A DNA stretch of 31,027 nucleotides, taken from positions 1-31,027 of the IMG/VR virus record IMGVR_UViG_3300005613_000278; one strand, 5' to 3'. The translations under genes and the position numbers were made by a program. The notes beneath the pieces are model-generated. The model was not told the origin of the DNA, made no database searches, and was given only the letters and a program-made list of their open reading frames with translations. Numbering within the stretch: the stretch's first letter is position 1; every line of letters starts with the position of its first letter. Shown in pieces: positions 1,082 through 29,800 of the stretch. Source of the stretch: a virus.

Positions 1082-1106
1082 AGATCGTCAAATTTTTACA
1101 CGGTCT
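1082..1106. repeat. 25-bp dispersed palindrome, copy 1
   Basis: Left arm AGATCGTCAAA, right arm TACACGGTCT-type. It fills the gap between the stop of the 73-residue membrane protein (1096-1098, inside the copy) and the ATG at 1078. On the minus strand it supplies the last codons K-T-V-stop of the upstream gene. Confidence 0.8.
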
Positions 1107-1317
1107 TGCATTTAACTTTAGCAATGTCATCTTTTAGATCATTAACAGTTACTATAAGGTTGTCTATTTTCTCGGTTACTAAGGTGAGGTAAGCTTCACG
1201 CCTCTCATCACATTGGTTGTTAGAGACTTTGTTGTTTCCACCAATTAGTTTTCCCACTGCACCTGATATTACTGCCACTGTTATCCCACCTAAAACAATA
1301 GTTGCTGGTTCCGGCAT
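1096..1317 (-). CDS. Small membrane / coiled-coil protein, possible lysis (spanin- or holin-like) protein
   Basis: A 73-residue protein. Residues about 6-30 form a Gly-rich hydrophobic segment (TIVLGGITVAVISGAVGKLI), followed by a polar region and a predicted coiled coil (ending VTEKIDNLIVTVNDLKDDIAKVK). The chosen start is the ATG at 1317, which overlaps the terminase stop as TAATG and has GGAG about 9 nt upstream; an in-frame ATG at 1332 would add five residues. One N-terminal membrane anchor plus a coiled coil resembles an inner-membrane spanin in outline, though it is short. It sits beside other lysis-type genes. Function is inferred from architecture only. Confidence 0.6.
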   Translation of the reverse strand: MPEPATIVLGGITVAVISGAVGKLIGGNNKVSNNQCDERREAYLTLVTEKIDNLIVTVNDLKDDIAKVKCKTV

Positions 1318-2858: not shown

Positions 2859-2860
2859 TT

Positions 2861-2885
2861 AGTTTGTAAAATTTTTTAACGAACT
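2861..2885. repeat. 25-bp dispersed palindrome, copy 2
   Basis: Arms AGTTTGTAAAA and TTAACGAACT. It spans from the stop codon of the holin-like gene (2884-2886) to two bases before the large terminase ATG, so it is the entire intergenic space. Confidence 0.85.
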
Positions 2886-3048
2886 ATTTCTTGGCAATAG
2901 CTGATCGAAGTCCGATGCCACCAAGTGCAACGCCGATAGCGATTAGGACGTCACCTATTGGATCGAAAATAGGGTTAACACTTGACAAGGCCTTAGCTGC
3001 AGCACCGAGTGCGGCGACTATGGTTCCAACGATAGTTTTCCAGCCCAT
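2884..3048 (-). CDS. Holin-like small membrane protein
   Basis: A 54-residue protein with two hydrophobic stretches, roughly residues 5-20 (Ala/Gly-rich, VGTIVAALGAAAKAL) and 29-47 (DVLIAIGVALGGIGL), ending in a basic tail SAIAKK. Start chosen at ATG 3048 because GGAGG lies 8 nt upstream; an in-frame ATG at 3123 would add a 25-residue extension without a good ribosome site. Two membrane segments, small size and proximity to an M15-type endolysin fit a holin that permeabilises the host membrane at lysis. This is inference from architecture and position. Confidence 0.6.
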   Translation of the reverse strand: MGWKTIVGTIVAALGAAAKALSSVNPIFDPIGDVLIAIGVALGGIGLRSAIAKK

Positions 3049-3112
3049 GTTAAAGTCCTCCGGTTTAAGGTTAGTGATTTTGTTCCAAAGGTTGATTAAT
3101 AACCAGATGAGT

Positions 3113-3286
3113 TTAAGAGTCATAAAATTGATCTAGCCTCTTACGATTCCAGTAGGCTTTAGACCTACTCATTAGGTTAGATAGTTTACGTGACTTGAAA
3201 AATTTGAGAATGTTTAGTATGTTAAATTTAAGTTCTTTTCTATTATGGTTTCTTCGGACCAAGTCATCTTCATATTGGTTAGCCAT
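3113..3286 (-). CDS. Hypothetical small basic protein
   Basis: An open frame of 57 residues from ATG 3286 (or 61 from ATG 3298), starting inside the end of the endolysin gene. It is strongly basic (many Lys/Arg, e.g. RRNHNRKELKFN and SRKLSNLMSRSKAYWNRKR). No clear Shine-Dalgarno sequence precedes either ATG. It fills a 230-bp space that would otherwise be empty in a gene-dense operon, which is the main argument for it. No recognised domain. Confidence 0.4.
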   Translation of the reverse strand: MANQYEDDLVRRNHNRKELKFNILNILKFFKSRKLSNLMSRSKAYWNRKRLDQFYDS

Positions 3287-3590
3287 TGAACTGAACATGT
3301 AAGTGGTCCGTTTCGAGTAAGGTGAAGTAACATGAACCGAGTGCGTTTTGGATCCTGGTTTTCCAAGTTTCTAAACTGTACTCATCAACTGGAAAGTCAC
3401 GAATCCGGAAGTCGAATGCTTTACCTTTGTAGTGTGAACTGTTAGGCTTGTGGGTTCCGTCACAAGCGCTGGTTATTGTTACTTGGTAACCAGTAGGTGC
3501 CATCTTCTGCACCATGTAGATGATTCGTAAAGCGTCTGGCCAAAGGAAAGTTATGTGGTGAAACTGAACGCCAGGTTTAATTTTGATCAC
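3279..3590 (-). CDS. Endolysin, peptidase M15 (D-Ala-D-Ala carboxypeptidase-like)
   Basis: A 103-residue protein with the zinc-binding pattern of the M15 family: SSHYKGKAFDFR at 51-62 (His53 and Asp60) and TDHLHVQF at 94-101 (His98, with acidic residues 93/95 before it). M15 enzymes cleave peptide crosslinks of peptidoglycan; in phages they are endolysins. The start is GTG at 3590 with AAGGA about 8 nt upstream. The length is short but typical for single-domain VanX/VanY-type phage lysins. It lies directly between the small terminase and a holin-like gene, giving a lysis cassette embedded in the packaging genes. Confidence 0.8.
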   Translation of the reverse strand: MIKIKPGVQFHHITFLWPDALRIIYMVQKMAPTGYQVTITSACDGTHKPNSSHYKGKAFDFRIRDFPVDEYSLETWKTRIQNALGSCYFTLLETDHLHVQFNG

Positions 3591-3794
3591 TTACAAATTC
3601 CTTCTATTATCTATAAACGAACCATCGAGAGCTGAGTGGTGTTTAGGTTTAGACTTTTTACGTTTAGGACCAACTACAATAGGTCCACCTTTTCCAACTT
3701 GTGTACCTTTACGCTCTCCATGAAACCATTCTTTGTAAAGCCTTTCTTGTTCTGGAGTTATCTTTAAATCTTTAAGCTTTCCTTTAGGCATCAT
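3591..3794 (-). CDS. Hypothetical small basic protein
   Basis: A 67-residue basic protein (start ATG 3794, GAGGG about 8 nt upstream; GTG at 3803 is a weaker alternative). Its centre contains KGGPIVVGPKRKKSKPKHH, followed by the acidic/polar end LDGSFIDNRRNL. It overlaps the end of the small terminase gene and abuts the endolysin start. No family recognised. Confidence 0.6.
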   Translation of the reverse strand: MMPKGKLKDLKITPEQERLYKEWFHGERKGTQVGKGGPIVVGPKRKKSKPKHHSALDGSFIDNRRNL

Positions 3795-4383
3795 TTTCTT
3801 CACCCTCAGTCTCAGGTTCTACGTCTATAACTATTCCAGACTCTTGTGCAGCTTTAGTTCCACGGTTTTTGAAAGACTCGATTTCGTCCTTGGTTAAGGT
3901 TGTGTGGACGGAGTGACTTTGGACTTTCGTGGGAACTCGGAGGCCACTAAGTTCAAGCACTACTGTGTCAGCGACAGACTTTTGATCCTTAAGTGTTGCT
4001 TGCCCACCTTCATTGTCAAAGATCTCATGGTAGACATTAAGGGCCTTGTTTGTTAGCACCCTGATCTTTTCAACTGTCTTCTTCGCTTCAATGTCCCTGT
4101 CACCACGGATTTCGGATAGTTTGTGTTGGCCAAGCTTTCCGTTGAGAGTGTTGGAAACAGTGACTGGTGAGATGTTTAGGATCTGTGCTATTTCTTTGTT
4201 TTTGTAACCACTAGCACTTAAGTTAACTATCTCATGTGAACGCTGCCAGAGTTGCTTGATCTCGTATTTAAGTGGCTTCGCTTCACCTTCTTCATCATAT
4301 TGATCTTCCCTACGCCTATGATCAGGCTCAAGGTAATCAAACCCATAGAGGTTGTTTCTGGTCTGTAGTTCGACTTCTGGCAC
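3784..4383 (-). CDS. Terminase small subunit (HTH DNA-binding protein)
   Basis: A 199-residue protein with a LuxR/sigma-like helix-turn-helix at about 51-80 (SASGYKNKEIAQILNISPVT is the core), followed by a helical region and an acidic tail ending DVEPETEGEENDA. Small terminases bind the phage packaging site and regulate the large subunit. The start is GTG at 4383 with AGGAG 8 nt upstream, and it is the first gene after the minus-strand consensus promoter at 4415-4443. Its place at the head of the operon that contains the large terminase supports the call; a transcription regulator is the alternative. Confidence 0.7.
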   Translation of the reverse strand: MPEVELQTRNNLYGFDYLEPDHRRREDQYDEEGEAKPLKYEIKQLWQRSHEIVNLSASGYKNKEIAQILNISPVTVSNTLNGKLGQHKLSEIRGDRDIEAKKTVEKIRVLTNKALNVYHEIFDNEGGQATLKDQKSVADTVVLELSGLRVPTKVQSHSVHTTLTKDEIESFKNRGTKAAQESGIVIDVEPETEGEENDA

Positions 4384-4414
4384 TTAGTAATCTCCTTTCT
4401 TATTAATCACCCAC

Positions 4415-4443
4415 ATTATAACACATGTCAATGTCTTTGTCAA
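4415..4443 (-). promoter_or_regulatory. Consensus sigma70-type promoter for the packaging/lysis operon
   Basis: On the minus strand: TTGACA (4443-4438), a spacer of exactly 17 bases, then TATAAT (4420-4415). Both hexamers are perfect. It is about 30 bases upstream of the small terminase GTG, so the transcript leader would be short. Confidence 0.9.
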
Positions 4444-4483
4444 GGTAATTTTCGGTACAATTAACCAACTATTAACCTGCCAA

Positions 4484-4508
4484 AGTTTGTAAAATTTTTT
4501 AACGGTCT
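4484..4508. repeat. 25-bp dispersed palindrome, copy 3
   Basis: Arms AGTTTGTAAAA and TTAACGGTCT. It lies about 40 bp upstream of the minus-strand -35 element (4438-4443), a position typical for an upstream regulator site. Confidence 0.85.
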
Positions 4509-4560
4509 TCACATCATGCTTTGCGCTGTGCGTGACGCTGTGTGCTGTGCGTGATTGTAC

Positions 4561-4709: not shown

Positions 4710-4865
4710 GGATAAGGTTATATGCCAACCACACCTTGGGTGGAACGGTGGCAGGCAATTGTGCCTAAACCCACTAATGGGCCAACAGTTCTCTGACAAC
4801 TGAATATGAACACGAACGTCACCTTGTGTGGTCCTATGGTCACACCTAATGAAAGGGGTATGACT
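4698..4865 (+). promoter_or_regulatory. Structured 5' leader
   Basis: About 160 nt between the promoter and the first gene. Several stem-loops are visible, e.g. AGGCA-ATTG-TGCCT at 4753-4766 and GTGTG/CACAC around 4826-4845. It may stabilise the mRNA or control translation. No known riboswitch class is recognised. Confidence 0.35.
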
Positions 4866-5216
4866 ATGGAAAACACAAAGGTAAACGGGACTTGGAATAT
4901 CAGTGGTTCTATGAAAGCCGATGGAGAATCGACCGAGAGTAAAAAGTTTACACTTAAGGTCAAGTTCGACAACGTGCCACTGGAACAGGTGGTTCAAAAG
5001 GCCTTGGAACCTACGAAAATCCAGTGGGTAAACAATGTAGGTAGGAAGAACTACGAGACCTACAAGGATAATCAGATGATTGACGTTGACTTCAAATCAC
5101 CTGGACGTAGGCCTGAAATAGATCCTGAGGTAGCGGTGGCCACAAAGTTGGCTACTATGACGCCTGAGGAACAACAGGAATATTTTAAGGGACTGTTGGC
5201 AAAGGCTAAAGGATAA
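4866..5216 (+). CDS. Hypothetical early protein, first gene of a self-contained unit
   Basis: A 116-residue soluble protein. The start chosen is ATG 4866 (MENTKVNG...), with AAAGGGG about 7 nt upstream; in-frame ATGs at 4860 and 4806 are less well placed. The N-terminal half alternates polar and hydrophobic residues (TWNISGSMKADG, then KKFTLKVKFDNVPLEQVVQ), suggesting beta strands then a helix; the C-terminus MTPEEQQEYFKGLLAKAKG is a helix. Codon use is more C/G-rich than in the neighbouring small genes. It is read from the promoter at 4669. The tail resembles that of the 131-residue protein at 9006-9401 (see there). Function unknown; likely abundant and early. Confidence 0.8.
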   Translation: MENTKVNGTWNISGSMKADGESTESKKFTLKVKFDNVPLEQVVQKALEPTKIQWVNNVGRKNYETYKDNQMIDVDFKSPGRRPEIDPEVAVATKLATMTPEEQQEYFKGLLAKAKG

Positions 5217-5481: not shown

Positions 5482-5495
5482 AGGAGGTGAACTAA

Positions 5496-5647: not shown

Positions 5648-5672
5648 AGATCGTAAATATATTTTACGGACT
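5648..5672. repeat. 25-bp dispersed palindrome, copy 4
   Basis: Arms AGATCGTAAAT and ATTTTACGGACT; an almost full-length match located just after the terminator at 5603-5641. Confidence 0.85.
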
Positions 5673-5960: not shown

Positions 5961-6263
5961 ATGAAGATTAGTAGAGGAGATAGGAGGAAGGTAGAAGTAG
6001 GGAGGAAAACTGTGGAGGTGGATGAAGTGGACAGAGTACTTGCAGAGTTCATGCCTTACGTTGGAGATGCTGATTTGATATTAGATGTTATGGAGAGGGT
6101 TTATAGCTGGGAAGGGGATAAGAAAGCCTTGATTACATTGAGTAATAGACTTAAGGCTATTAAGGCAGGGCTTAGGGATTTGGGTTATAGTGATATACCA
6201 TTTAAGAGGTATACTGAACTTACTGACATTAGAGATAGGAAGGAGAAAGGTTATGAGGGATAG
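5961..6263 (+). CDS. Hypothetical protein, purine-rich gene
   Basis: A 100-residue charged protein; GGGAGG lies 6 nt upstream of the ATG. Sequence features: basic N-terminus (ISRGDRRKVEVGRK), a middle helical segment (LILDVMERVYSW), and RLKAIKAGLRDLG. The coding strand is very poor in C and uses AGG/AGA for Arg and TTA/TTG-type codons, unlike 9006-9401. It overlaps the next gene by 11 bp. No family recognised. Confidence 0.7.
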   Translation: MKISRGDRRKVEVGRKTVEVDEVDRVLAEFMPYVGDADLILDVMERVYSWEGDKKALITLSNRLKAIKAGLRDLGYSDIPFKRYTELTDIRDRKEKGYEG

Positions 6264-6912
6264 GGATTATAGAGGTAAATATAAAACAGGTAGGGCTACT
6301 GATCCGGTTTATAAGAAGGATAGTACAAAGGGAAAGAGCTTGTTAATAGATCCTCAAACATTTAAAGGAGATGCACTGGTGCAAGTGTGGGTGGATAGTA
6401 GGATCTTGGCCACCTTAAGCAATTGGTTAGATGCTTACAATCATACAAGGTTTATGAGTGAAGTAGTTAAGGATACTTTAAGGGCTACAGTTGAATTGCT
6501 GGTTGAGCAAGGAGAAGTTGAGTTTGTTAATGATACGTTAGAAGCTAGGAAGTTGTTAGAGATGAAGTATAGAGTTAACCTTAATCCACGAGGTAAAGGT
6601 ATGAAGAATGTGATGCATAATAAGTTACTGTCTGATAAGAATAAGTTTATGAGGAGTAAGCTTAATGTTAGACAAGGGATGAGTGTAGCAGGTAACTACA
6701 GTGGTCATGATGTTAGTAGTGAGGATGTAGAAATGGTTAATAGGATGGTTGAGTTTAATAGACAGAAGAAAGCTGCTGGGTCAGGGCTTAGGGAAGATAT
6801 GAGTAGGGAGGAGCTTAAGGCTTATGAAGAGGAAAGGGAAAAGAAGGTTAGGGAGGAAGAGAATGCACCTATTGATATTGAGGAGATGAAGAGGTTAGGT
6901 CAGATTCGTTAA
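6253..6912 (+). CDS. Hypothetical protein, possible DNA-binding
   Basis: A 219-residue protein; start ATG 6253 with AGGAGAAAGG about 4-8 nt upstream (a longer in-frame start at 6190 lacks a site). The region around residues 42-75 (VQVWVDSRILATLSNWLDAY, then FMSEVVKDTLRATVELL) has a strand followed by two helices, as in ribbon-helix-helix proteins, but the match is loose. The C-terminal third is highly charged and probably coiled coil (EELKAYEEEREKKVREEE). Same C-poor, purine-rich base use as 5961-6263, so the two genes likely travel together. It may act on the repeat region just upstream, which is speculation. Confidence 0.7.
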   Translation: MRDRDYRGKYKTGRATDPVYKKDSTKGKSLLIDPQTFKGDALVQVWVDSRILATLSNWLDAYNHTRFMSEVVKDTLRATVELLVEQGEVEFVNDTLEARKLLEMKYRVNLNPRGKGMKNVMHNKLLSDKNKFMRSKLNVRQGMSVAGNYSGHDVSSEDVEMVNRMVEFNRQKKAAGSGLREDMSREELKAYEEEREKKVREEENAPIDIEEMKRLGQIR

Positions 6913-6936
6913 GTTCGTTAAATTATTTTACGAACT
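6912..6936. repeat. 25-bp dispersed palindrome, copy 5
   Basis: Arms AGTTCGTTAAA and ATTTTACGAACT. It begins at the last base of the stop codon of the 6253-6912 gene. Confidence 0.85.
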
Positions 6937-8026: not shown

Positions 8027-8096
8027 GTTCACAATCTTCCTCACCGGAGTAGCATTTGGTTACTTTTGGTGCTGGAAGGCATTGACAAGTTCGTAA
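8001..8096 (+). CDS. Tiny membrane protein (31 aa) overlapping the previous gene
   Basis: ATG 8001 has AAGGA about 7 nt upstream. The product is one hydrophobic helix (WIIKFTIFLTGVAFGYFWCW) with a basic N-terminus. Its stop codon TAA is formed by the 25-bp palindrome copy at 8088-8112. Too short for certainty; the good ribosome site and membrane character support it. Confidence 0.5.
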   Translation: MKMKPWIIKFTIFLTGVAFGYFWCWKALTSS

Positions 8097-8112
8097 AATA
8101 ATTTTACGGTCT
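8088..8112. repeat. 25-bp dispersed palindrome, copy 6
   Basis: Arms AGTTCGTAAAA and TTTTACGGTCT, the closest copy to the consensus. Directly after a TTGACA (8082-8087), but no -10 follows at the right distance. It lies about 28 bp upstream of the 8140 start. Confidence 0.9.
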
Positions 8113-9005: not shown

Positions 9006-9401
9006 ATGCCTAAGAATTTAGCAGTTGCTGCAAAAGTACCGGCGAACAAAGAGAAGGGAACACCTGAACTCGGTCCTGTAACCATTGAGGTTAAGACTGG
9101 CGAGACTGCCAAGGAAATGATCGAGATGTTTGGTGACGAGGCTGTCAAGACCAATGCTCAGGCAAACTGGATCGTTACACTTCAGGGAAACATCAGGTCA
9201 GGTCTCCGCAAGGGTGAGGACCAAGCAGCTATGCAGGCCAGACTCGGCGATGCCAAGATGGGCGTGAGCACTAAGGGCGTTACAGTGGACGCTACCAAAG
9301 CGTACGAAGCCAAGTTCCTGCAGGCCTCTCCTGAGGATCAGGTCAAGATGATCAAGGAACTCCAAAAGCGTGCAGAGGAACTGAGAAAGGCGAGTAAGTA
9401 A
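9006..9401 (+). CDS. Hypothetical, probably highly expressed early protein
   Basis: 131 residues; AAAAGGAG about 9 nt before the ATG. Codon use is distinctly richer in C/G-ending codons (GCC, AAG, CTC) than the surrounding small genes, as expected for an abundant protein. N-terminus MPKNLAVAAKVPANKEKG, a central segment VKTNAQANWIVTLQGNIRSG, and a C-terminal helix ASPEDQVKMIKELQKRAEE. The end resembles MTPEEQQEYFKGLLAKA of the protein at 4866-5216, and both sit alone behind consensus promoters, so they may be distant paralogs. Candidate DNA-binding or host-takeover protein; function not known. Confidence 0.8.
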   Translation: MPKNLAVAAKVPANKEKGTPELGPVTIEVKTGETAKEMIEMFGDEAVKTNAQANWIVTLQGNIRSGLRKGEDQAAMQARLGDAKMGVSTKGVTVDATKAYEAKFLQASPEDQVKMIKELQKRAEELRKASK

Positions 9402-9494: not shown

Positions 9495-9519
9495 AGTCCG
9501 TAAAATTATTTAACGGTCT
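9495..9519. repeat. 25-bp dispersed palindrome, copy 7
   Basis: Arms AGTCCGTAAAA and TTAACGGTCT. It lies 20 bp upstream of ATG 9539, between a terminator and the next gene. Confidence 0.9.
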
Positions 9520-11461: not shown

Positions 11462-11813
11462 ACTATATTACTGTGCTAACTGTGGGAAACGTCTTAGCGT
11501 GTATAGGAAACCAATGCCTGCTTATGGTAGGATCTTGGAACTCGTCATCCCTCATGAATGTAGTGAGGAACCTGTCGAGTTTGACTTATCACCTATTGAC
11601 GTACCAGTTCAAGCACCCACCGAGACGGATAACAAGTTTGTAAAAAAATTAAACGAACTTTCGCCACCTTCATTCCCGAGTCAGAACTTAGACCTACGAG
11701 ATCGAAGGCCACCTGAACAGGTGAAGTCCTCAGCCCCTGAGTCATTGTTAACTCATGTAAAAAATGCTTTGCCAACCTCACCTGCTCACGATGCGAAAGA
11801 TGAACCTGAATGA
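11454..11813 (+). CDS. Hypothetical protein with N-terminal zinc-binding motif
   Basis: 119 residues; GGGAG 7 nt upstream. N-terminal CANC at 8-11 and HEC near 34-36 suggest a zinc knuckle. The rest is Pro-rich and probably disordered. A copy of the 25-bp palindrome lies inside the gene and is translated as KFVKKLNEL. Function unknown. Confidence 0.65.
   Translation: MSKLYYCANCGKRLSVYRKPMPAYGRILELVIPHECSEEPVEFDLSPIDVPVQAPTETDNKFVKKLNELSPPSFPSQNLDLRDRRPPEQVKSSAPESLLTHVKNALPTSPAHDAKDEPE
11635..11659. repeat. 25-bp dispersed palindrome, copy 8 (inside a gene)
   Basis: Arms AGTTTGTAAAA and TAAACGAACT. Read in frame within 11454-11813 in the same frame as the copy at 12834. Confidence 0.8.
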
Positions 11814-12740: not shown

Positions 12741-12928
12741 TTACTGAACGTACACTTAGAAAGTGGAGGCAAGAGGCGTTAGCTATTAACGATAGAATAT
12801 CCCACATAGGCCTTGATGATATGGCAGAGGAAAAGACCGTAAAATTATTGAACGATCTAATCGATCGTAACCTTCGAATGACTCAGGAACTTCTTGACCA
12901 ACACTTACTTCTGAGGACTTACATATGA
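12737..12928 (+). CDS. Hypothetical helical protein
   Basis: 63 residues; ATGA overlap with the previous stop, AAAGGAG about 8 nt upstream. Entirely helical in character (RTLRKWRQEALAINDRI, then NRNLRMTQELLDQHLLLR-like). A palindrome copy lies within it and is translated as KTVKLLNDL. Function unknown. Confidence 0.65.
   Translation: MITERTLRKWRQEALAINDRISHIGLDDMAEEKTVKLLNDLIDRNLRMTQELLDQHLLLRTYI
12834..12858. repeat. 25-bp dispersed palindrome, copy 9 (inside a gene)
   Basis: Arms AGACCGTAAAA and TGAACGATCT. In-frame within 12737-12928. Confidence 0.85.
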
Positions 12929-16224: not shown

Positions 16225-16249
16225 AGACCGTAAAATTTTTATACCAACT
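16225..16249. repeat. 25-bp dispersed palindrome, copy 10 (degenerate right arm)
   Basis: Left arm AGACCGTAAAA intact, right side ATACCAACT decayed. It begins four bases after the tRNA-like RNA and ends 17 bp before the 16267 start. Confidence 0.65.
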
Positions 16250-17861: not shown

Positions 17862-19202
17862 ATGACAATCGACGTAGGCCGTGTGGAAATGGTACCTATT
17901 GATAAGATCACTATCTCAGACCGTGCTCGTGAGGTTATGGGAGACATTGATGGTCTTGAGGAGTCAATGAAGGAGTCTGGATTGACTACACCTTTAACCT
18001 TTAGACTCATGGGAGACGGAACTTACAACCTCCTCGCTGGTGAGCGTAGGTTTACAGTTCTAAAACGTAATGAAGTTGCAGAAATCCCAGGTCGAATCTA
18101 CGATCGTGAGCTTTCTGAGCTTGAGATAAAGATCATTGAGAAGGCTGAAAATTTCTATCGTAAGGACTGGGAATACTGGGAACTTGATAAGCTAACCTTA
18201 GACATAACCAAGATGCAACAGGAACTTCATGGAGTAAAAGCACCAGGACCTAACGCTGACGGATGGGGACTTGCTGACACAGGTGAGATGTTAGGTGGCA
18301 CTACTAAAGCTGCCGTGTCTCAATCTATCAAACGTGCTGAGGCTCGTGAGGTGTTCCCTGAGTTATTCGAGAACTGCCGAACTGCCTCCGATGCATCTAA
18401 GGTGCTTAAGAAAGTAAACGAAGCTATGGTGCGTGGAGCTATTGCTGAGAAACTTGAAACGTCCAAGACAAAGACCACCCTTCATGAGCTTTCAAAGTGT
18501 TATGTGGTTAAGAGTTTCTTTGAAGGTGTGGAGGAAATCCCTGACAGTGCGATCCACTTGGTGGAGATTGACCCACCTTATGCAATCGACCTACACCAGG
18601 CTAAGAAGACAGAAGGTGAATCTAACTACCAACTCGAAGAATATAATGAGATACCTATCAATGACTACATGAACGGTAGCCAAGATGGCAAGTGGAAAGG
18701 CATGAACGAAGTGTTCAGACAATGCCATCGAGTAATGGCTAATCACTCCTGGCTCCTCTGCTGGTTCGCTCCTGAGCCTTGGTTTCATGAGGTTTATCAA
18801 GCTATCACCAGTGCAGGGTTCGAAACCACTCGCATGTGCCCTGTGTGGACTAAACCTTCAGGCCAGTCTAAACGTCCAGAAATGCACTTGCCTAACTCTT
18901 ACGAAATGTTCTTCTACGCATGGAAAGGTCGGCCTGCTATAGCTAAGGCTCGAAGTGGTAATCAATTTAACTACTCACCAGTTCCTGCCCAACAAAAGAC
19001 TCACCCAACAGAACGTCCGATAGACTTAATGACTGACATTTACGAGACCTTTGCCTTCCCAGGCTCACGTGTTCTAATCCCATTCCTTGGGTCAGGTGTA
19101 GGTATTTTAGCTGCACATAAACTTGGAATGTCACCTATTGGGTTTGACCTTTCAAAGAGTAACAAAGACTCGTTCCTAATCAAAGCTAATGCACTTGCAT
19201 AA
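17862..19202 (+). CDS. ParB-like N domain fused to DNA methyltransferase
   Basis: 446 residues; TAGGAGG about 8 nt upstream. Residues 1-110 are a ParB/Srx-like domain: [17 protein letters not shown], then [15 protein letters not shown], and the conserved LLAGERRF at 57-64. The C-terminal part is an N4-cytosine/N6-adenine methyltransferase with DPPY at 237-240 (catalytic) and FLGSG at 408-412 (AdoMet binding), an order IV-then-I typical of beta-class enzymes; HPTERP near 385-390 is also characteristic. No restriction partner is adjacent, so it is an orphan methylase likely protecting phage DNA or marking it. The ParB-type domain probably helps DNA targeting. Confidence 0.88.
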
Positions 19203-19335
19203 ATGTATTATATATAAACTAGGAACATATTCAAGGTTAGTAAGATACCTATATCATAAACTAACTGGCAAGTGGCTGTGGGGAATTATAGGCTGGATAA
19301 GAGATGATCAGAAATTAGTCCGTAAAAAATTTTAA
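19189..19335 (+). CDS. Possible small basic membrane-associated protein (48 aa)
   Basis: An open frame from ATG 19189, overlapping the methyltransferase end by 14 bp, to a TAA at 19333-19335 that lies in a palindrome copy. Composition is protein-like ([16 protein letters not shown], then [11 protein letters not shown]). There is no good ribosome site, which lowers confidence. Otherwise this 150-bp stretch is empty. Confidence 0.35.
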
Positions 19336-19341
19336 CGGTCT
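19317..19341. repeat. 25-bp dispersed palindrome, copy 11
   Basis: Arms AGTCCGTAAAA and TTTAACGGTCT. It is followed immediately by the GGAGG of the 19355 gene. Confidence 0.9.
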
Positions 19342-19354: not shown

Positions 19355-19531
19355 ATGCATGCAACAGGTATAAAGACTATATCAGTTACATTAGAACTTG
19401 ATGACTTAGAAGCCACTTGGTTAAAGAGTGTTATGCAAAACTCTTTAACACAAGATGAAAGTGAGACTGATAAGACTATGAGAAAATCCTTTTGGAAAGC
19501 TCTCGATGAGGCAGGAGTGAAAACGGTATGA
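19355..19531 (+). CDS. Hypothetical small protein (58 aa)
   Basis: ATG 19355 with GGAGG 7 nt upstream; ends with an ATGA overlap onto the polymerase gene. Strand (KTISVTLELDDLEATWLK) then acidic helix. Translational coupling with the polymerase suggests co-regulation. No family recognised. Confidence 0.6.
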   Translation: MHATGIKTISVTLELDDLEATWLKSVMQNSLTQDESETDKTMRKSFWKALDEAGVKTV

Positions 19532-22038
19532 AAAAACTCTACGTTCCACCTTCCGGTAACACAGACGCCAAACTCGCAGGCTGTGGTGAGCAACCAGGAA
19601 CTCACGAAATCCGTGCTCGACCACCTAAGCCCTTCGTAGGTCCTGCTGGTCAAGGCCTCGACCAATGCTTGCTAATGACCAAGATAATTCGTCGAGACCT
19701 TTACCTAACCAATGTGATTAAGGACCTGGACCGACCACTTAAACACTACATAAACATAGGTCGTGGCACTCCCTCAGTCTCACCTGAAGGTCACCAGTAC
19801 CTTCGTGAGCTGAAGGAAGAACTAACCAACCTAAACCTTAATTGCATAGTAGCTTTCGGCAACATACCTTTGTTTGCCTTAACTGATAGGGTGGGAATAA
19901 CCAAGTGGCGTGGCAGTGTAATCGAATCTACTCTCGTGCCTGGTTTGAAAGTCGTACCAACCTTTCATCCTGCCACTTTCATCCCTCCAAAGTTTAACTT
20001 CCTAAACAAACCTTTAATTTGTGAGGACTTACTAAGGGCCAAATATGAAAGCACATTTAAGGAAATTCGACGGACTACACGCAACATCTTTATTAAACCA
20101 ACTTTCGAAGAGTCCATCGCTTACCTCAACCATTGTTTCGAGGTCGGCTGTAGGGGCCAAACCATTGCTATCGACATTGAAGTTATTAATGAAGAACTCG
20201 ACTGCATCTCATTTGGTCACTCACCAACAAGAAGCATCTCAATCCCGTTCAGGGATCACAAAGGTGACTACTTCACACCAGACCAAGAACACGAAGTAAT
20301 GCTCCTAATTGCTAAGATCATTCAATCAAGGAGGATTTCCAAAGTTGGTGCAAACTTCATCTTCGATATGCAATTCTTATTTCGCAAGTATGGCATCATC
20401 CCTCGTGGGCCACTTCACTGTACACAGATAGCTCAGAAGATTGCCTTCCCTGATTTCCCTGCTGGCCTCGACTTCGTAACCACTATGCACACCGACGTAC
20501 CTTACTACAAACAAGATGGTAAGAAGTGGATGAAGATGGGAGCTGGCACTTGGGATCAGTGGTGGATCTACAACGGCATGGACTCGATAGTGCCAGTCGA
20601 AGCTCTCCCCAAACAACTTGCAATCCTCAAGCAACAGGAAAATGAAGCAACCTATGAACGTCAGCGTAAGTTAATCAAACCACTCATCTACATGTCTGAG
20701 CGAGGGATTAAAGTTGACGTCCAAGGTATGTTGACCTACAAAGAAGAACAACAATCTAAACTCGACGACTTAGCACTTGAACTTAACGAGGAAGTAGGCT
20801 ATGCAATCAACTACAACTCACCAGCTCAGCTTAAGAAATACTTCTACGAAGAACTAAAACATCAACCTTATAAGAAGAAAGGTGCAGGTGGAAAGTACAC
20901 AGTAACCACTGATGTGGATGCACTTAAGCGCCTGGCCCGTAAAGGTGTGCATGCTGCGAAACTAATGCTTGACATTAGGTCACTTTCTAAACGTATCTCA
21001 ACGTACCTTAACATAGGAAAGGTGGATAAAGATGGAAGATATAGAAGTAGTTATAAACCTGTCGGGGCCGAAACAGGTAGGCTCTCATCAGGTGAAACGA
21101 TATTCGGTACTGGTGGAAATCAACAGAACTGGCCACATGATCTTCTCAGATTCTTTCTGTTTGACGAGGGATACATTGGGTATTCTCTCGACCTTAGTCA
21201 AATCGAAAATAGAATTGTTGCTTACGTTGGAGGAGTCCTTCCCCAAATTGAAGCTTTCGAGCAAGGAATAGACCTTCACCGCTTGACTGCTTCAGTAATC
21301 TTCGGCAAACCTTACGATCAGATCTCCGGCGAAGATGGTTCCTCAACCCTTGGTGATGGTAGACAATCAGAAAGGTTCTGGGGAAAGAAAGGTAACCATG
21401 CAACTAACTACGATGTTGGATATAAGACCTTCGCACTTAAAAACGAGATGGGTGAGAGTGAGGCTAAGGCTACTATAGAACGTATCCATAAAGGTTACCC
21501 ACAAATTCGAGGAGGTTTCCACGTTCTAATCCAAAACATGCTTAAGCGTAATAGGACTGTGACAAACCTCTTCGGACGCACTCGATTATTCCTCGGTCCT
21601 ATCATCCCTTCTTACCCATTCGTTCCTGCAGGTGCTTGTGCTAACACTTACCGTGAAGCCTACGCACAACTTCCACAAAGCACTTGTGCGGATAAGATCA
21701 ACGAACAAGGCCTTGAGTATATTTACTATAACCAGCACATATTTAAGCATGTAGAGCTTCTAACCCAAGTGCATGACTCAGTAGTGTTCCAAATCCCACT
21801 ATCCCTTCCTTGGGAAGAACATGCAAGGTTAGTTTTACTAATCAAGGACTCACTCGAAACCCCACTTGTCTGGCATGGGAAGGAAATCAAGACACCTTGC
21901 GATGTGGAGATAGGTCTTAATATGTATAAGAAGTCTATGGTAGAACTTAAAAGCAAGGAAGTTCCAAGTAACCCTGGTTTATTAGCTACTAAACTAAAGG
22001 AGATTTATGAAAAACTTACCAATAGAGTTCTTACGTGA
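19528..22038 (+). CDS. UDG-like domain fused to family A DNA polymerase
   Basis: 836 residues, replicative polymerase. Residues about 15-175 resemble family 4/5 uracil-DNA glycosylases: GCGEQPG at 18-24, PFVGPAGQGLD at 35-45, and FHPAT at 146-150. The 3'-5' exonuclease domain shows AIDIE (Asp216, Glu218), NFIFD (Asp280) and NGMDS (Asp352), so proofreading looks intact. The polymerase domain has motif A SLDLSQIE (Asp555), motif B at 616-635 (RFWGKKGNHATNY and on) and motif C TQVHDS (Asp750; Ser in place of the usual Glu). There is no 5' nuclease domain, as in T7 polymerase. Start overlaps the previous gene as ATGA. Because motif C ends in Ser, catalysis may rely on a different second acid; this deserves attention. 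Confidence 0.92.
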   Translation: MKKLYVPPSGNTDAKLAGCGEQPGTHEIRARPPKPFVGPAGQGLDQCLLMTKIIRRDLYLTNVIKDLDRPLKHYINIGRGTPSVSPEGHQYLRELKEELTNLNLNCIVAFGNIPLFALTDRVGITKWRGSVIESTLVPGLKVVPTFHPATFIPPKFNFLNKPLICEDLLRAKYESTFKEIRRTTRNIFIKPTFEESIAYLNHCFEVGCRGQTIAIDIEVINEELDCISFGHSPTRSISIPFRDHKGDYFTPDQEHEVMLLIAKIIQSRRISKVGANFIFDMQFLFRKYGIIPRGPLHCTQIAQKIAFPDFPAGLDFVTTMHTDVPYYKQDGKKWMKMGAGTWDQWWIYNGMDSIVPVEALPKQLAILKQQENEATYERQRKLIKPLIYMSERGIKVDVQGMLTYKEEQQSKLDDLALELNEEVGYAINYNSPAQLKKYFYEELKHQPYKKKGAGGKYTVTTDVDALKRLARKGVHAAKLMLDIRSLSKRISTYLNIGKVDKDGRYRSSYKPVGAETGRLSSGETIFGTGGNQQNWPHDLLRFFLFDEGYIGYSLDLSQIENRIVAYVGGVLPQIEAFEQGIDLHRLTASVIFGKPYDQISGEDGSSTLGDGRQSERFWGKKGNHATNYDVGYKTFALKNEMGESEAKATIERIHKGYPQIRGGFHVLIQNMLKRNRTVTNLFGRTRLFLGPIIPSYPFVPAGACANTYREAYAQLPQSTCADKINEQGLEYIYYNQHIFKHVELLTQVHDSVVFQIPLSLPWEEHARLVLLIKDSLETPLVWHGKEIKTPCDVEIGLNMYKKSMVELKSKEVPSNPGLLATKLKEIYEKLTNRVLT

Positions 22039-23830: not shown

Positions 23831-23977
23831 ATGATGGGTATCCTGCGGGTCATCTTGCTCCTGGCGGTATTATCCTTAACAATGAGTGAGTGTAGGGGAA
23901 GGACTCTACATCCTTCTCCTACATTGAACCAGACCGTCAAATTTTTTAATCATCTTTGGAGGAAGTCAAATGCATAA
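23831..23977 (+). CDS. Tiny membrane or secreted peptide (48 aa)
   Basis: ATG 23831 preceded by AAAGGAGGTGA. A hydrophobic N-terminal segment (ILRVILLLAVLSLTMSEC) resembles a signal or lipoprotein leader, though the residue before Cys is Glu, so it is not a standard lipobox. A palindrome copy is read in frame as QTVKFFNHL. Candidate small lysis-associated or surface peptide; uncertain. Confidence 0.5.
   Translation: MMGILRVILLLAVLSLTMSECRGRTLHPSPTLNQTVKFFNHLWRKSNA
23931..23955. repeat. 25-bp dispersed palindrome, copy 12 (inside a gene)
   Basis: Left arm AGACCGTCAAA, right side TTAATCATCT weaker. In-frame within 23831-23977 and in the same frame as copies 8 and 9. Confidence 0.7.
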
Positions 23978-24146
23978 TATAATGGTAACTAGTAGAATAT
24001 ACAGAAAACAAGGTTATACAATAATAAAGATAGCTCCATCTATGTATCACAGTTGGATAATGTGGCTATTAATTGAAGGGGATAGTCGCGACTTGTGGCG
24101 TAGAGCTACTCACAAGAATAGTCCGTCAAAAAATTTTACGGTCTAA
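23970..24146 (+). CDS. Hypothetical small protein (58 aa) at the convergent end
   Basis: ATG 23970 with GGAGG 7 nt upstream, overlapping the previous ORF by 8 bp. Basic and partly hydrophobic (YRKQGYTIIKIAPSMYHSW, WLLIEGDSRD). Its last codons and stop lie in a palindrome copy. It ends 4 bp into the convergent minus-strand gene. Confidence 0.5.
   Translation: MHNIMVTSRIYRKQGYTIIKIAPSMYHSWIMWLLIEGDSRDLWRRATHKNSPSKNFTV
24120..24144. repeat. 25-bp dispersed palindrome, copy 13, at the convergent gene junction
   Basis: Arms AGTCCGTCAAA and TTTTACGGTCT. It spans the point where the plus- and minus-strand modules meet. There is no following T run, so it is not a standard terminator. Confidence 0.85.
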
Positions 24147-27100
24147 TCAGAACCTTCTAACCTCCTCATTTCCTCCATAAACCTACTATATCCTTCGTTA
24201 CTTAAATACCTAGCCCTCATCAATTCACTAAGCATTTCTCTACCATTGTCAAGTGACCCATAGATCTCGTAAAAGTGTTTAGCTTTAGCTTTAGGAGTTG
24301 TGTGAAACATACTTACCCATGCATCTCTGTGTGGCATATCTTTAACATTTCTAATAAACACTTCCTTGGTCATTAGACTATTCATTATGTTAGGATCTTT
24401 AAAGCTTCTAACATAGTCTATTATGTCTTCTCTTTTCCCATATCCATGCCAGTAGTAATTCTCAGCAAGGAGATTCATCTTACCATTTCTTACTACTGAA
24501 TTAACTCTTTCTTCTTCAACTGGTTCACGACCTGCTTCCCTAATCTCATACCCAGGTCTGGTAACACCTATGATTCTATTTATACCTGGGAGTTCAGCTA
24601 AACTAATCATCCAATGCTTTGACTTTAGATCCTCAGGTACATCACTAAATGCCCACTCATATGCTCCAGATAACATCTGTACGAATTCATTATTCCTTGG
24701 TATAATATTACCTACAGCACCTTGTAATCTTACTGGAGAAAGTTTTGTAACTTTGCTAACATCTACTGCCATTTGAGATAGTCTAGGATCCCTCATGGCA
24801 CCTTTCCCATAAATACCTTCCTGTGCACTCTTAGGCCAGTCTAAAGTTTTCCCACCCATGTCTGTGTACATGTCCCTGTCTTTCCACCAGCTATAATTTG
24901 AAGTGTACTCTGCATAACCTTGCAGTGCTGGTGGGAGGCTAAGTCCATAAGGTCCTAGTTGTTTAAGTGTTTGGATGAGCTTCTTAAAGTCTGGTTCTTT
25001 TTCTATAATCCCTTTATCATGTAGGTAAGTTCTAGCCAGTGCATCTGACAACTTATACACAAAAGCCGCACCAGGGTCTAACCTTAGCTTAGCATAAAAG
25101 TAAACTTTCTCCCCATTCTCATCTACAGCACTTACATGGTCTGGGAATAAAGGTATGATTAGGTTTTTCTCATTCCCTTCCTCCGGAATATCCTTCATTA
25201 CATGGGGCCAGAGTACCCATCCAACTGTTGCTAACCCAGCAGCGGTACCACCTATCTGCATAGTCTTCATTGTAAAGTCTACTGGGTTATCCTTAGCTTG
25301 TCTCCAAAAAGTTCTAAATCCCAAAGTACCTGCGTTAAGGAATATGAAACCAAGTTGGTCAAGTCCCTTAACAAACCACCCACCTTGGTTATAGTCCATT
25401 CTGTCTCTTGCTGCATGCGTAGCCTCATACATTACATCTTTGTTCTTCCTTGCTTCCTCAAGACTAATACCTTCCCTTTTAGCTATTGCTTTAGTTGCTC
25501 TATTCGTCGTAGCTTCCCTAACCCACAGTTCCATACTAAGTCCATGGTATGAGATAAGGTCTAGAAACTTTCCCCAGTTCCCTCTTTGCTTAATACCTTT
25601 TGTATACCTACCTTCACGCATAGCAAGGAACGGCATAACTCCACCATGCTTTACATAGTCTTGATAAAGCTTCCCTCTGGTAACTGCATCTGGTAAAGTC
25701 TTAATCATATCTATCCCAATCTGCACAGGTGCAACTCCAGGAATTGGACTATACAATGCCTTAGGTTTACCAGTAACTGGATCGAAGGTTCTAGCAGTAA
25801 GCATAGAATGGGTTAAATCCATAGGTACACCAATGAAAGTGCCCCACATTGGACTTAAGCCAACTGCTAATGACCTAGTAACAGGTGCAAGCATGGCACC
25901 TCTTATAACCTTAGTCATTCTTGCACTAAGATCATGACTCTTTGTTACTAAGTACTTAGCCGCATCTGGATGGAAGTATAGATTCTTTCTCTTGCCTTCA
26001 ACAAAGTAAGGCATTGGACTCCAGCCTCTTACCTTTTTATTACTAACTATCCCATTCTCTGGATGTTTGTCAGCTAAGGTTTTCCACGCTAGTTTAGCTT
26101 CCTGATTAGCTATAGCACCCTGAGACCTAGCAAACATCTCATGAGCTGATGGCCAAGGATCTGGTTCGATTATCTTATGGCTTCCCAGTCCAAGGCTTTC
26201 AACACCTGAGCTGGTAGACTTAATGGTTTCATTTCTTAGCTTTGAATTGTAAGTAAAGTCATAGAGTTTTTGAACTGTCATGGATCCAAACTTTCTAAAG
26301 TCATGTGATTTTAACTTCTCACCTTCTTCAGGAGTCTTCATACCAGCTTCAACAAGGTCATCTACAATCCTTCTCATCCACTCAAAGTATTTCTCACTTG
26401 CATCTGCGGCTTCCTTAACTTGCTTTGCAGTAAGCTTACCAAATATCTTCTCAATCTCCGGAATAGATACCTTCGCAGCTTTCCATGCTTGTTCTGGAAT
26501 ATCTTTAGCCATGTCAGCTAATGATGTAATAGATATTACTTGGTCAGGTCCATACCCAGGTTGGGCTTTGTACTTTGGTTTGTAACTATAAATGGATTTA
26601 AGTCTTCTAGCAAGTACGTCTTTCTCAAAGAGTTTTTTCTGGTCCTTGTTTAACCCTTTAAGTACCTCACGTTTACACTGGTCATAAAGTATCGCTCCGT
26701 AACCTTTACCAGCAACTGCTGAACGCTGCCTTGGAATTATATAGTGTGCTTCCTTTGGGAACTTTTTCCTCACTTGCTTAAGGAGTGTTTCCATCTGGTC
26801 CACTGATGACCTAACAACGTCAGACTTTACTTGCTTAGTTGCATAGCCGAGTTTGAACTTTTTCATTTCAGCAGATTCGTCAAAGGATTTGGCAAACTTA
26901 TAAGCCTCAGAAGCCATAGACTTAAGTAACTTAGTACCCTCGGAAGTTATTGCACCACCTAAGGAATAAAGAGTAGTTCCTGCTCCTCTATGAATACCTT
27001 CTTTGACTTCAAGCATCTTATCAAGTGTTTCCCAAGGTGGCTCTCTTCTCCGTTGTGTAGGTGAAAGCTTAGCCCTTTCTTCAGTCAGCCTTGCCAGCAT

Positions 27101-29800
27101 TTCGCCTGGGTCACCTAAATAGTTCATACTGGCGTCTTTTTGCATGGTATCTCGAAGAAGGTCGTCAGTCTTCCAGTAGTCATCTGATTGGCCTTTTAAT
27201 TTATTTTTTATACTGTATATAACAAAGTCAACCCTATCTTCCATTCTAGGATTATCTAATACTTCAGAATGTACAATATCTATTTGCCTCTTAGCTACTT
27301 CACTAATATCTAACTTATAAAGCTTATCAAATAAATCATCAATTATCTTAGCCTCTTCAGCTCTTACATTAGTCCCTTTAAACTTAGTTCCTACTGCTTC
27401 CTCAATCCCGTGGGCTAGCTCATGTCTTAATGAACTCTTATCTCCCATCCTTCTAATAGCTATAATATTAGGTGGAATAAACTTACCTAAAGAATCTAAA
27501 GTCTGATCAAATATGATAGTAAAATCCTTAAGCTCAGGAACCATTTCGTAAAGTTCTGGGTAATCTACTACATCTGTAAGTCTAACAAACTGCCCACCCT
27601 TTTCCAATGTATTAAGCCCAGGTGTAAAGTAAGCATCCCTTATTTCCTTAGGTAAAGGTCTTAGCTTTAACTTATCTGGATCTACCTCAAGCCTCCAATT
27701 TCCATCCTTGTCAAGCCAGTAACCAGTTTCCTTCCAGATCTTCTTATTGCGATAGAGCCTAGACAATGAATGTTCAGCACTTAACTCCCCAGTCATTCCT
27801 TCTGACCTAGCTTCAATCTCATCAATTAAACCTTCAAGGTATAGCTTGGTTATATTCTTAGGTCCTTTAAATCCACTATTCTCTACAGTTAACTTTTTAA
27901 CATGTCCTCTTACTAACTCAATTGCTTTCATAACAGCTTTAGGTAATTTACTAAATTCTATAGGCACCATCATGTTAAGTTGCACAGATGGTTCAATTTT
28001 TTTACGGTCTGCACCCCTAGCCCACTCAGCCGCTGCCCTTGTGTAATTTTGGAAGTTAGCAACTTCACTATCAGTTCCAAAGGCATCTAATAATCTATCA
28101 TAATTAGCAGGGTCCATTACCTGGGCTGCAAGGTTACTAAGTGAGTCCTTCACTGATGTAGTAAGCTTCCCTTCATCTAACTCCCTATTAGCGTCGTTTA
28201 GAAATTTAGCAGCTATCTGCACTGGGTTATCCTGCCAGTTAGTATTCTCATCAAACCACTTACTCATAAACGCAGTCCGTTCAGGCTCTGCACGGAAGGA
28301 GCTTTCAACTTCTGGTTTCCTCTCCAATGTTTCAAGTTCTGCATCAAGCTTAGGCATTGGAACGTCACTTTCTTTATCTACCTTATCCCAGAAGTCTATA
28401 AATTTTTGATAGTTATCTATGGTGAGTTTTTCTCCAGTGACCTTCTCATAGGCAGGTATGAGTTCAGGATCAAGTTCAGCAAGTTCCTTAGCTTCTTTAT
28501 TAGAAATACCTTTTGACTTGTAAAACTCAACGATTGAAGCTTTGGTAATTTCTGGTTCAGGTTCCTCAGTCCGTTCAATTTTTTTACGGACTTTTGGTTC
28601 CTCAACCTTCCTAACCTCTTCCGACAACCCAGGTACTTCTTCCTTCTCAACAGTCTTAATTTTAACTGGTTTCTTCTTAGCCTTAATCTCAGCTTGCTTC
28701 CCTGCTCTTTTAGTTGCTACGTGTACTACGTGATCTAAGTCTTCTCTCTTTAACAGCTTTGGTTTACCTGGTAACCTTCCCTTTTGTAATGTATAATCTT
28801 CCTCGATCATCTTACCATAATCAAGTTTACTCTGTATCTCAGCCGTTTCTGCCTCAAGCCTCCTCTTTTGATCATCTAAGACTTTCTGCTGAGCTTCTTT
28901 AATAACATCATCAGTTATCTGATCAACCTCTTTTTGTACTTTATCTATAGCCTTAGCCTTCTCCAATATAGGCTCTGCAATTTTTGTAACTTCCTCTGGT
29001 CCACCTTTCATAATCCTTCCCATAAAAGCCAAACCAAGTCCATCAGCAAAGAACTTAATAGCACCTTTACAGTTAGGCCAGTCTTTATAAGTGTCACTAT
29101 CTGCAAGTGCATGAAGTGGTCCTGCCACAGCTGTGTAAGGAGCCATGAAGATTTCACCCACAACATCTTCATCAGACTTATGTTCTTTTACTTCCTCTCC
29201 ACCAAAGATAGCTTTAGAAAGTTCAGCCCCGCCTCTCCTTGGCATTTCAAGAAGCTTTCCCAGTGGACCTGTAACACCTTCCTGCCATAGATTCATAACT
29301 GTAGATAGTTGTTTCTCTGAAGCTTCATATAGATCAAGGATAGTAAATGGTTCATCTTTAATAACCTTCTTACCTATTTCCAGTGGGAGGTTTACAATAG
29401 CTGAACCAAGACCTGCTGTAAAGCCTGGAAGAGCAGATAAGAAAGTAGCAGTTCCCTTCACCATATCATATGGGTTCTTAGCCATGTTCCAGATACTACT
29501 AAGCGAGTGCATGAAGCCAGCTTTGGTTTCTTCAGATATAATAGGCGCTGGCTTTATAACATCATATTCTTCAATACTTGGCGTAAGTACCTGAGCCATA
29601 GACATACCTTGGAGAGTTTTATCTCCTATCCCTTTTTCACGTAGAGACTCAGTTTGTATCTGGTGAGCTATCCCACTTACGTCGGGAGTTTCTTGGGTAG
29701 GTTCTTGAAATCTTTTATTAGGTATGAGGTTTAGAAGGGAATCATCAGGTTGATTACCTTGGACATTTTTATCAGGTATAAGATCAAGTAAGTTATCCAT
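24143..29800 (-). CDS. Giant polyvalent-type virion protein with metallopeptidase motif
   Basis: 1885 residues, the largest gene in the window. The N-terminus has two related units (NLLDLIPDK, SLLNLIPNK). A hydrophobic stretch follows (FLSALPGFTAGLGSAIVNL), then a coiled-coil, Lys/Glu-rich region at about 270-470. At 792-801 is RHELAHGIEE, an HExxH zinc-metallopeptidase site (His793, Glu794, His797). The region about 1290-1560 (TKVIRGAMLAPVTRSLAVGL, then AARDRMDYNQGG and GTLGFRTFWRQA) resembles the LPD38-type domain of large polyvalent proteins. Such proteins are packaged in the virion and injected with DNA. Start overlaps the upstream stop as TAATG. Two palindrome copies lie inside. Domain names beyond HExxH are from memory. 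Confidence 0.8.
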   Translation of the reverse strand: MDNLLDLIPDKNVQGNQPDDSLLNLIPNKRFQEPTQETPDVSGIAHQIQTESLREKGIGDKTLQGMSMAQVLTPSIEEYDVIKPAPIISEETKAGFMHSLSSIWNMAKNPYDMVKGTATFLSALPGFTAGLGSAIVNLPLEIGKKVIKDEPFTILDLYEASEKQLSTVMNLWQEGVTGPLGKLLEMPRRGGAELSKAIFGGEEVKEHKSDEDVVGEIFMAPYTAVAGPLHALADSDTYKDWPNCKGAIKFFADGLGLAFMGRIMKGGPEEVTKIAEPILEKAKAIDKVQKEVDQITDDVIKEAQQKVLDDQKRRLEAETAEIQSKLDYGKMIEEDYTLQKGRLPGKPKLLKREDLDHVVHVATKRAGKQAEIKAKKKPVKIKTVEKEEVPGLSEEVRKVEEPKVRKKIERTEEPEPEITKASIVEFYKSKGISNKEAKELAELDPELIPAYEKVTGEKLTIDNYQKFIDFWDKVDKESDVPMPKLDAELETLERKPEVESSFRAEPERTAFMSKWFDENTNWQDNPVQIAAKFLNDANRELDEGKLTTSVKDSLSNLAAQVMDPANYDRLLDAFGTDSEVANFQNYTRAAAEWARGADRKKIEPSVQLNMMVPIEFSKLPKAVMKAIELVRGHVKKLTVENSGFKGPKNITKLYLEGLIDEIEARSEGMTGELSAEHSLSRLYRNKKIWKETGYWLDKDGNWRLEVDPDKLKLRPLPKEIRDAYFTPGLNTLEKGGQFVRLTDVVDYPELYEMVPELKDFTIIFDQTLDSLGKFIPPNIIAIRRMGDKSSLRHELAHGIEEAVGTKFKGTNVRAEEAKIIDDLFDKLYKLDISEVAKRQIDIVHSEVLDNPRMEDRVDFVIYSIKNKLKGQSDDYWKTDDLLRDTMQKDASMNYLGDPGEMLARLTEERAKLSPTQRRREPPWETLDKMLEVKEGIHRGAGTTLYSLGGAITSEGTKLLKSMASEAYKFAKSFDESAEMKKFKLGYATKQVKSDVVRSSVDQMETLLKQVRKKFPKEAHYIIPRQRSAVAGKGYGAILYDQCKREVLKGLNKDQKKLFEKDVLARRLKSIYSYKPKYKAQPGYGPDQVISITSLADMAKDIPEQAWKAAKVSIPEIEKIFGKLTAKQVKEAADASEKYFEWMRRIVDDLVEAGMKTPEEGEKLKSHDFRKFGSMTVQKLYDFTYNSKLRNETIKSTSSGVESLGLGSHKIIEPDPWPSAHEMFARSQGAIANQEAKLAWKTLADKHPENGIVSNKKVRGWSPMPYFVEGKRKNLYFHPDAAKYLVTKSHDLSARMTKVIRGAMLAPVTRSLAVGLSPMWGTFIGVPMDLTHSMLTARTFDPVTGKPKALYSPIPGVAPVQIGIDMIKTLPDAVTRGKLYQDYVKHGGVMPFLAMREGRYTKGIKQRGNWGKFLDLISYHGLSMELWVREATTNRATKAIAKREGISLEEARKNKDVMYEATHAARDRMDYNQGGWFVKGLDQLGFIFLNAGTLGFRTFWRQAKDNPVDFTMKTMQIGGTAAGLATVGWVLWPHVMKDIPEEGNEKNLIIPLFPDHVSAVDENGEKVYFYAKLRLDPGAAFVYKLSDALARTYLHDKGIIEKEPDFKKLIQTLKQLGPYGLSLPPALQGYAEYTSNYSWWKDRDMYTDMGGKTLDWPKSAQEGIYGKGAMRDPRLSQMAVDVSKVTKLSPVRLQGAVGNIIPRNNEFVQMLSGAYEWAFSDVPEDLKSKHWMISLAELPGINRIIGVTRPGYEIREAGREPVEEERVNSVVRNGKMNLLAENYYWHGYGKREDIIDYVRSFKDPNIMNSLMTKEVFIRNVKDMPHRDAWVSMFHTTPKAKAKHFYEIYGSLDNGREMLSELMRARYLSNEGYSRFMEEMRRLEGSD
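27986..28010. repeat. 25-bp dispersed palindrome, copy 14 (inside the giant gene, degenerate)
   Basis: Right arm TTTTACGGTCT intact; left arm decayed. On the minus strand it encodes DRKKIEPS. Confidence 0.55.
28568..28592. repeat. 25-bp dispersed palindrome, copy 15 (inside the giant gene)
   Basis: Arms AGTCCGTTCAA and TTTTACGGACT. On the minus strand it encodes VRKKIERT in the coiled-coil region, the same reading frame as copy 14. Confidence 0.8.

Follow-up and report, generated by a model that had tools for sequence, protein, structure and literature searches.

What reads a 25-bp palindrome that is dispersed over a phage genome, and to what end? The question is raised by the virus record IMGVR_UViG_3300005613_000278 (IMG/VR), whose positions 1 to 31,027, here called the window, represent a 31-kb fragment of the genome of an uncultured tailed phage and contain 15 copies of such a palindrome. 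The initial annotation, made from the sequence alone, stated that no candidate binder was identifiable in the window. This was wrong; a candidate is encoded at 17862-19202 on the plus strand, a 446-aa fusion of a ParB N-terminal domain, a helix-turn-helix (HTH) and a DNA methyltransferase. As judged from its sequence co-variation with the sites, this phage-encoded protein very probably binds the palindromes.

Palindromic sites in the window and in related phages

All 15 palindrome coordinates in the initial annotation were exact. A pattern search allowing up to three mismatches recovered 14 of the 15, whereas none was expected from 100 dinucleotide shuffles. With a symmetric weight matrix the 15 sites scored 26.1-36.6 bits and the next-best position in the 31 kb scored 1.95 bits. 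The same matrix applied to 20 shuffles gave a best position that was mostly below 10 bits and at most 19.2 bits. De novo palindrome discovery, in which the earlier list was not used, returned the same 15 sites and none in the reversed control. The consensus of the sites is AGWYYGTNAAA-WWW-TTTNACRRWCT (25 bp), and the site-to-site spacing in the window ranges from 0.19 to 4.6 kb.

The sites are not assigned to a strand. Site 1, AGATCGTCAAATTTTTACACGGTCT (1082..1106), was recovered by pattern, matrix and de novo discovery. Site 2, AGTTTGTAAAATTTTTTAACGAACT (2861..2885), is located between the gene of the terminase large subunit (TerL) and the next gene, and site 3, AGTTTGTAAAATTTTTTAACGGTCT (4484..4508), in the divergent region that separates the minus- and plus-strand arms. 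Site 5, AGTTCGTTAAATTATTTTACGAACT (6912..6936), is at the stop codon of an RHH-like gene and is found in the same place in the relatives L010, L019 and L050. Pattern and matrix both identified site 4, AGATCGTAAATATATTTTACGGACT (5648..5672), site 6, AGTTCGTAAAATAATTTTACGGTCT (8088..8112), site 7, AGTCCGTAAAATTATTTAACGGTCT (9495..9519), and site 10, AGACCGTAAAATTTTTATACCAACT (16225..16249); site 12, AGACCGTCAAATTTTTTAATCATCT (23931..23955), was identified by the matrix. Site 8, AGTTTGTAAAAAAATTAAACGAACT (11635..11659), and site 9, AGACCGTAAAATTATTGAACGATCT (12834..12858), are situated within open reading frames (ORFs). Site 11, AGTCCGTAAAAAATTTTAACGGTCT (19317..19341), comes shortly after the ParB-methyltransferase gene and ahead of a GGAGG. 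Finally, site 13, AGTCCGTCAAAAAATTTTACGGTCT (24120..24144), marks the 3′ end of a 5.6-kb gene, inside which site 14, AGATGGTTCAATTTTTTTACGGTCT (27986..28010), and site 15, AGTCCGTTCAATTTTTTTACGGACT (28568..28592), are located. About ten sites fall in gene gaps or on their borders, and the others (11635, 12834, 27986 and 28568) are intragenic. In the window (27986, 28568) and in the late part of L044, L050, L056, L153 and L028, intragenic sites were observed within the very long gene on the minus strand, in a stretch that offers no gap between genes.

Searches with the ParB-methyltransferase and with TerL yielded 57 and 75 related stretches, respectively. Nearly all relatives with enough sequence have dispersed 25-bp palindromes, in 10-22 copies per genome, with a half-site that differs by lineage. 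The length is nearly constant (26 bp in L156). The half-site is AGAYCGTTTAA in L050, AGWYCCATTAA in L028, AGTCCGGTTAA in L053, AGWTRTTTAAA in L075, AGATAWATAAA in L072 and [CG]CTTTGATGATT in L155. No motif was detected in L157, L172 and the short L158 and L159, where there was too little sequence or no family was found. Of the named relatives found, the closest was Desulfofustis phage LS06-2018-MD01 (OP947158). It is distant (TerL 46%, ParB-methyltransferase 38%) and has a palindrome of its own, GCTATGTCCCAAATTGGGACATAGC, in 10 copies, with a different half-site (rCTATGTCCCAA) and different outer bases; its ParB-methyltransferase is annotated only as 'ParB-like partition protein'. The initial annotation had named a lack of the motif in relatives as grounds for dismissing it, an objection that fails, as the motif is carried by relatives with diverged sequence.

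Among 319 sites from 32 genomes, the two arms agreed in 2842 symmetric positions, as compared with 2950 ± 17 when arms were re-paired within each genome. This absence of arm-arm compensation points to the DNA site of a dimer, with two half-sites read independently, and not to a hairpin. The homodimer site proposed in the initial annotation is thereby favoured. The symmetry of these sites was in fact a little lower than that of the re-paired arms, which would be the pattern if perfect palindromes were selected against.

The sites were spaced more evenly than by random placement (26 genomes, combined p 7e-11) and also more evenly than by random choice among gene gaps (coefficient of variation 0.49 vs 0.85 in 22 genomes, with approximate gene calls). 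Although 93% of the sequence is coding, 165 of 267 sites were outside called ORFs, and they were commonly located 10-20 bp ahead of a called start or of a ribosome site. A palindrome was present within 150 bp after the ParB-methyltransferase gene in 21 of 37 genomes, with 5.6% expected per genome. In two metagenome bins all sites were on the phage contig: 22 in the L155 bin and about 20 in the L153 bin, with none in the remaining 1.9 Mb and 1.2 Mb, respectively. Membership of a bin is, however, no proof of the host.

Co-variation of the sites with a ParB-methyltransferase

In the fusion protein, the ParB N-terminal (nucleotide-clamp) domain comprises residues 11-91 (17892..18134, +) with conserved GERR and ENxxRKD boxes, and is followed by the HTH at residues 137-164 (18270..18353, +), with the recognition helix at 149-164. 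Residues 231-435 (18552..19166, +) form the N6A/N4C DNA methyltransferase domain, in which the DPPY and FLGSG motifs are kept. Pfam ParB_N and N6_N4_Mtase both matched, and TIGR04285 and TIGR00180 gave partial matches below cut-off. The PDB matches of an AF2 model were Noc/ParB N-domains with HTH as well as beta-class N6A/N4C methyltransferases, the methyltransferase fold reaching Z 24.5 to M.BceJIV. The VIA-align rows covered mainly the methylase half, and the assignment of the ParB half is based on Foldseek and profile matches. Across 44 sequences, A59, G60, R62, R63, E96 and N97 of the ParB boxes were invariant, as were D237, P238, P239, Y240, G410, S411 and G412 of the methyltransferase motifs. 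The N-terminal domain and HTH are thus present, and an N6_N4 methyltransferase occupies the C-terminus where ParB of ParABS systems has its dimerisation domain.

This protein was picked out because its HTH changes with the motif. In 40 dereplicated genomes, with correction for overall divergence, residue 149 (codon 18306-18308, +), with which the recognition helix begins in the predicted structure, ranked 1 of 395 columns of the ParB-methyltransferase for tracking the motif. It also ranked 1 of 2327 columns over seven proteins (r = 0.51; next 0.43). K149 pairs with G6T7 (22 genomes), D or G149 mostly with A6T7 and R149 with G7 (one genome). Q149 pairs with A7 in 4 of 4 genomes, and A7 was found in none of the 36 others. 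A tree from which the DNA-binding domain was left out showed four origins of Q149, each accompanied by A7, and no independent pair in the opposite direction for K, Q or D/G. A PGP (proline-glycine) loop at residues 127-131, just before the HTH, was present in 36 of 36 genomes with AG ends and absent in 4 of 4 with other ends.

The rule was fixed in writing before three more scans of further genomes. The motifs of L153, L155 and L156 had already been seen by then and only the residue was unseen, while L161, L170 and L174 were fully new. K predicted G6T7 correctly in 2 of 2 (L153, L170) and Q predicted A7 in 1 of 1 (L155); for C, A and P at position 149 the rule made no prediction. The relation between loop and ends held in all six further genomes with a motif (L153, L155, L156, L161, L170 and L174).

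Precedents exist for both pairings. Arg173 of Caulobacter ParB bonds guanine 1 of parS, and the equivalent Gln of Noc reads adenine 1 of NBS (PMC7383237). Local alignment of the L050 and L151 proteins to Noc placed residue 149 opposite the residue at CcParB 173/Noc 158. The window protein aligned poorly to Noc by itself, and the equivalence to it was routed via the family alignment. Around the HTH the HMMER profile alignment with Noc goes out of register, and the equivalence was therefore taken from local alignments and helix position. Given this equivalence, the same two amino-acid/base pairings (Arg-G and Gln-A) are seen again in the present phages. Their sites also have an inner GTTAAWW that is similar to the published parS half, TGTTTCAC.

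Purpose of the sites and alternative explanations

The palindromes are probably parS-like loading sites for a ParB-methyltransferase clamp that acts across the phage's own DNA. A ParB-like organiser had been among the options of the initial annotation and is favoured by the evidence. Each half-site would be read by one HTH of a dimer, with residue 149 reading half-site bases 6-7 and the loop preceding the HTH reading, or enabling the reading of, the outer AG. The dimer would then close as a nucleotide-dependent clamp and slide off the site, steps that seem reasonably likely by analogy with ParB, Noc and KorB. With loading sites spread evenly, no kilobase of the phage genome would be far from a clamp, and the attached methylase may modify the phage DNA in cis and so label it as self, probably as protection from host restriction. 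The specificity of methylation would come from the loading site rather than from the enzyme's own target, and each lineage would have re-keyed its lock and its 10-22 sites together. That such a self-mark by cis methylation is the purpose of the system is proposed tentatively. The composite picture of a lytic phage family that marks its own genome via a loaded sliding methylase, entering at a private and evenly spaced palindrome, is put forward with somewhat greater reserve. ParA ATPase (PF13614) had no matches in the window, in OP947158 or in the records of 11 relatives, several of them fragments, while the control was positive in 14 of 14 genomes; with no ParA found, the system does not appear to be one of partition.

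Several observations weigh against this interpretation. Columns of other proteins reach r values up to 0.43, and the tree-based sign tests are individually underpowered (4/4, p = 0.125). Distant ParB-methyltransferase phages, L162-L167 (22-36% identity), lack a dispersed 24-27 bp family, so the residue/base rule is not universal for ParB-methyltransferase fusions. The methylase need not self-mark; a regulatory role, or an action on the sites themselves, is conceivable. We know of no ParB-fold/methyltransferase fusion for which sliding has been shown. Furthermore, a recent survey reports binding of ATP, and not of CTP, for a SAM-methyltransferase fusion with the ParB fold that was tested (PMC12704722).

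Two alternatives retain the same binder and sites and differ in purpose. The clamps might act as a KorB- or stoperator-like silencer or roadblock that represses or times operons from gene gaps, with the methylase as a switch or side activity. This is unlikely, even though the sites prefer positions outside ORFs and shortly upstream of starts and KorB on RK2 works in this way from distal sites (PMC11790492): the sigma70-like promoters at 4443 (−), 4669 (+) and 8861 (+) are free of sites, some sites are deep within the 5.6-kb gene, the evenness is greater than gene gaps account for, and the invariant methyltransferase motifs would be left without a role. Less likely again is a structural purpose, in which a Noc/ParB-like organiser condenses, bridges or shields the phage DNA and aids replication, packaging or the exclusion of host factors. 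No ParA was found and there would be no reason for a methylase domain with conserved DPPY and FLGSG, whereas the even spacing over the whole genome and the Noc-like N-terminal domain and HTH agree with it.

The remaining alternatives change the binder or dispense with it. A host regulator or another phage protein, for instance the terminase small subunit or the RHH protein (6190-6912), is very improbable as the binder. The palindrome is exactly at the end or stop codon of the RHH gene in several genomes, but among closely related phages the motif changes together with residue 149 of the ParB-methyltransferase, and co-binned bacterial contigs are without sites. The RHH protein itself was ruled out, as two RHH subfamilies with different DNA-reading strands share one motif. 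An RNA hairpin, cruciform or terminator would fit a unit that is an inverted repeat, has a 3′ arm rich in T and is found close to gene boundaries; the arm pairing below the re-pairing expectation refuted it, there was no match in Rfam and the site co-varies with an HTH residue, leaving it next to no credence. As little credence is given to a spreading palindromic mobile element (MITE/REP-like), an option of the initial annotation. Multiple dispersed copies are what it would leave, yet these are only 25 bp long without shared flanks, occupy conserved and evenly spaced places such as that after the ParB-methyltransferase gene, and change in sequence in concert with the recognition helix. The repressor/stoperator system of mycobacteriophage L5, likewise suggested at the outset, is disfavoured by the palindromic sites, by a binder that would be a ParB-methyltransferase rather than a repressor, and by the lack of an integrase (PF00589) in 13 phage records, several of them fragments. 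The window as a whole was rejected as L5-like because of the missing integrase.

Genomic context and relation to known systems

The minus-strand arms encode TerL (1317-2858), a small-terminase-like HTH protein (3784-4383) and a protein of 1885 aa, the product of the 5.6-kb gene (24143-29800). The plus-strand replication arm encodes DNA ligase, exonuclease, Sak4, dCMP deaminase, the ParB-methyltransferase, a UDG-DNA polymerase A and a DUF3987 protein; the RHH-like DNA-binding protein is also encoded on the plus strand. A UDG domain is joined to DNA polymerase A at 19528-22038 (+; Pfam UDG, DNA_pol_A, exo1). Two small proteins (4806-5216 and 9006-9401, both +) have C-termini alike by eye and are possibly paralogues, the latter having a homologue in the Desulfofustis phage. 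The three sigma70-like promoters are near-perfect (TTGACA-17-TATAAT or TATGAT) and none overlaps a palindrome. No near-DNA relatives of the window were found in the phage collection searched. Among phages with distant ParB-methyltransferases, a longer imperfect palindrome of the GGCATATACAATACAGTCACTGTATAGCATATGCC type is dispersed in three copies each in L163 (1686, 7684, 16242) and L164 (917, 6819, 16263), and L166 has a tandem array at 400-1330 of about nine 33-bp units (AGAGAGTACCA...TGTGAACCA), which looks like an iteron or centromere array.

The phage system resembles ParB/parS and Noc/NBS in its N-terminal ParB domain (GERR, ENxxRKD), the same HTH type and a palindromic site. The Arg-G and Gln-A code at the first recognition-helix residue, here deduced from co-variation, is also shared, and the NBS sites of Noc are dispersed too. 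It differs from them in the lack of ParA, in the DNA methyltransferase as C-terminal domain and in a site that includes outer bases and measures 25 bp, or 26 bp in one genome, as compared with the 16 bp of parS/NBS. Unlike in ParB and Noc, the specificity diverges among close relatives, and the sites are evenly spaced over whole genomes in a lytic-phage context. KorB/OB on plasmid RK2 is similar as a ParB-family protein with distant operators on a mobile element that is not only a partition factor. KorB, however, has no methylase and is a promoter silencer with KorA, whereas no KorA-like partner was identified for the phage protein and its sites do not overlap the strongest sigma70-like promoters. 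Mycobacteriophage L5 is alike in having many dispersed copies of one protein site that diverge with the binder, but its sites are asymmetric and read by a monomeric repressor of temperate phages (PMC9283540); those of the present phages are palindromic, with a ParB-methylase as the presumed binder and no integrase found.

Fusions of the ParB fold with an N6_N4 methyltransferase, the domain combination of the window protein, are in the available part of the PNAS 2025 survey (PMC12704722) reported as frequent in phages, without DNA sites or an established function. Relative to that part of the survey, the sites, the specificity code and the genome-wide layout proposed here for one phage family are additions. 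The open literature contained no report that we could find of dispersed sites for such a fusion, and nothing on methylation of Desulfofustis phage MD01 was found in the accessible portion of the pink-berry literature. The fusion was thus known as a domain combination; what appears to be new is ParB/parS-type recognition redeployed as a genome-wide network of sites for a methylase.

The genomes themselves give the site, a code that links residue to base and dozens of naturally paired proteins and sites, and the role of ParB-methylases thereby becomes testable. The family also amounts to an experiment of evolution: time and again, a single recognition residue has changed along with some 15 genomic sites. 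The finding suggests a way in which a virus may tell its own DNA by its loading sites.

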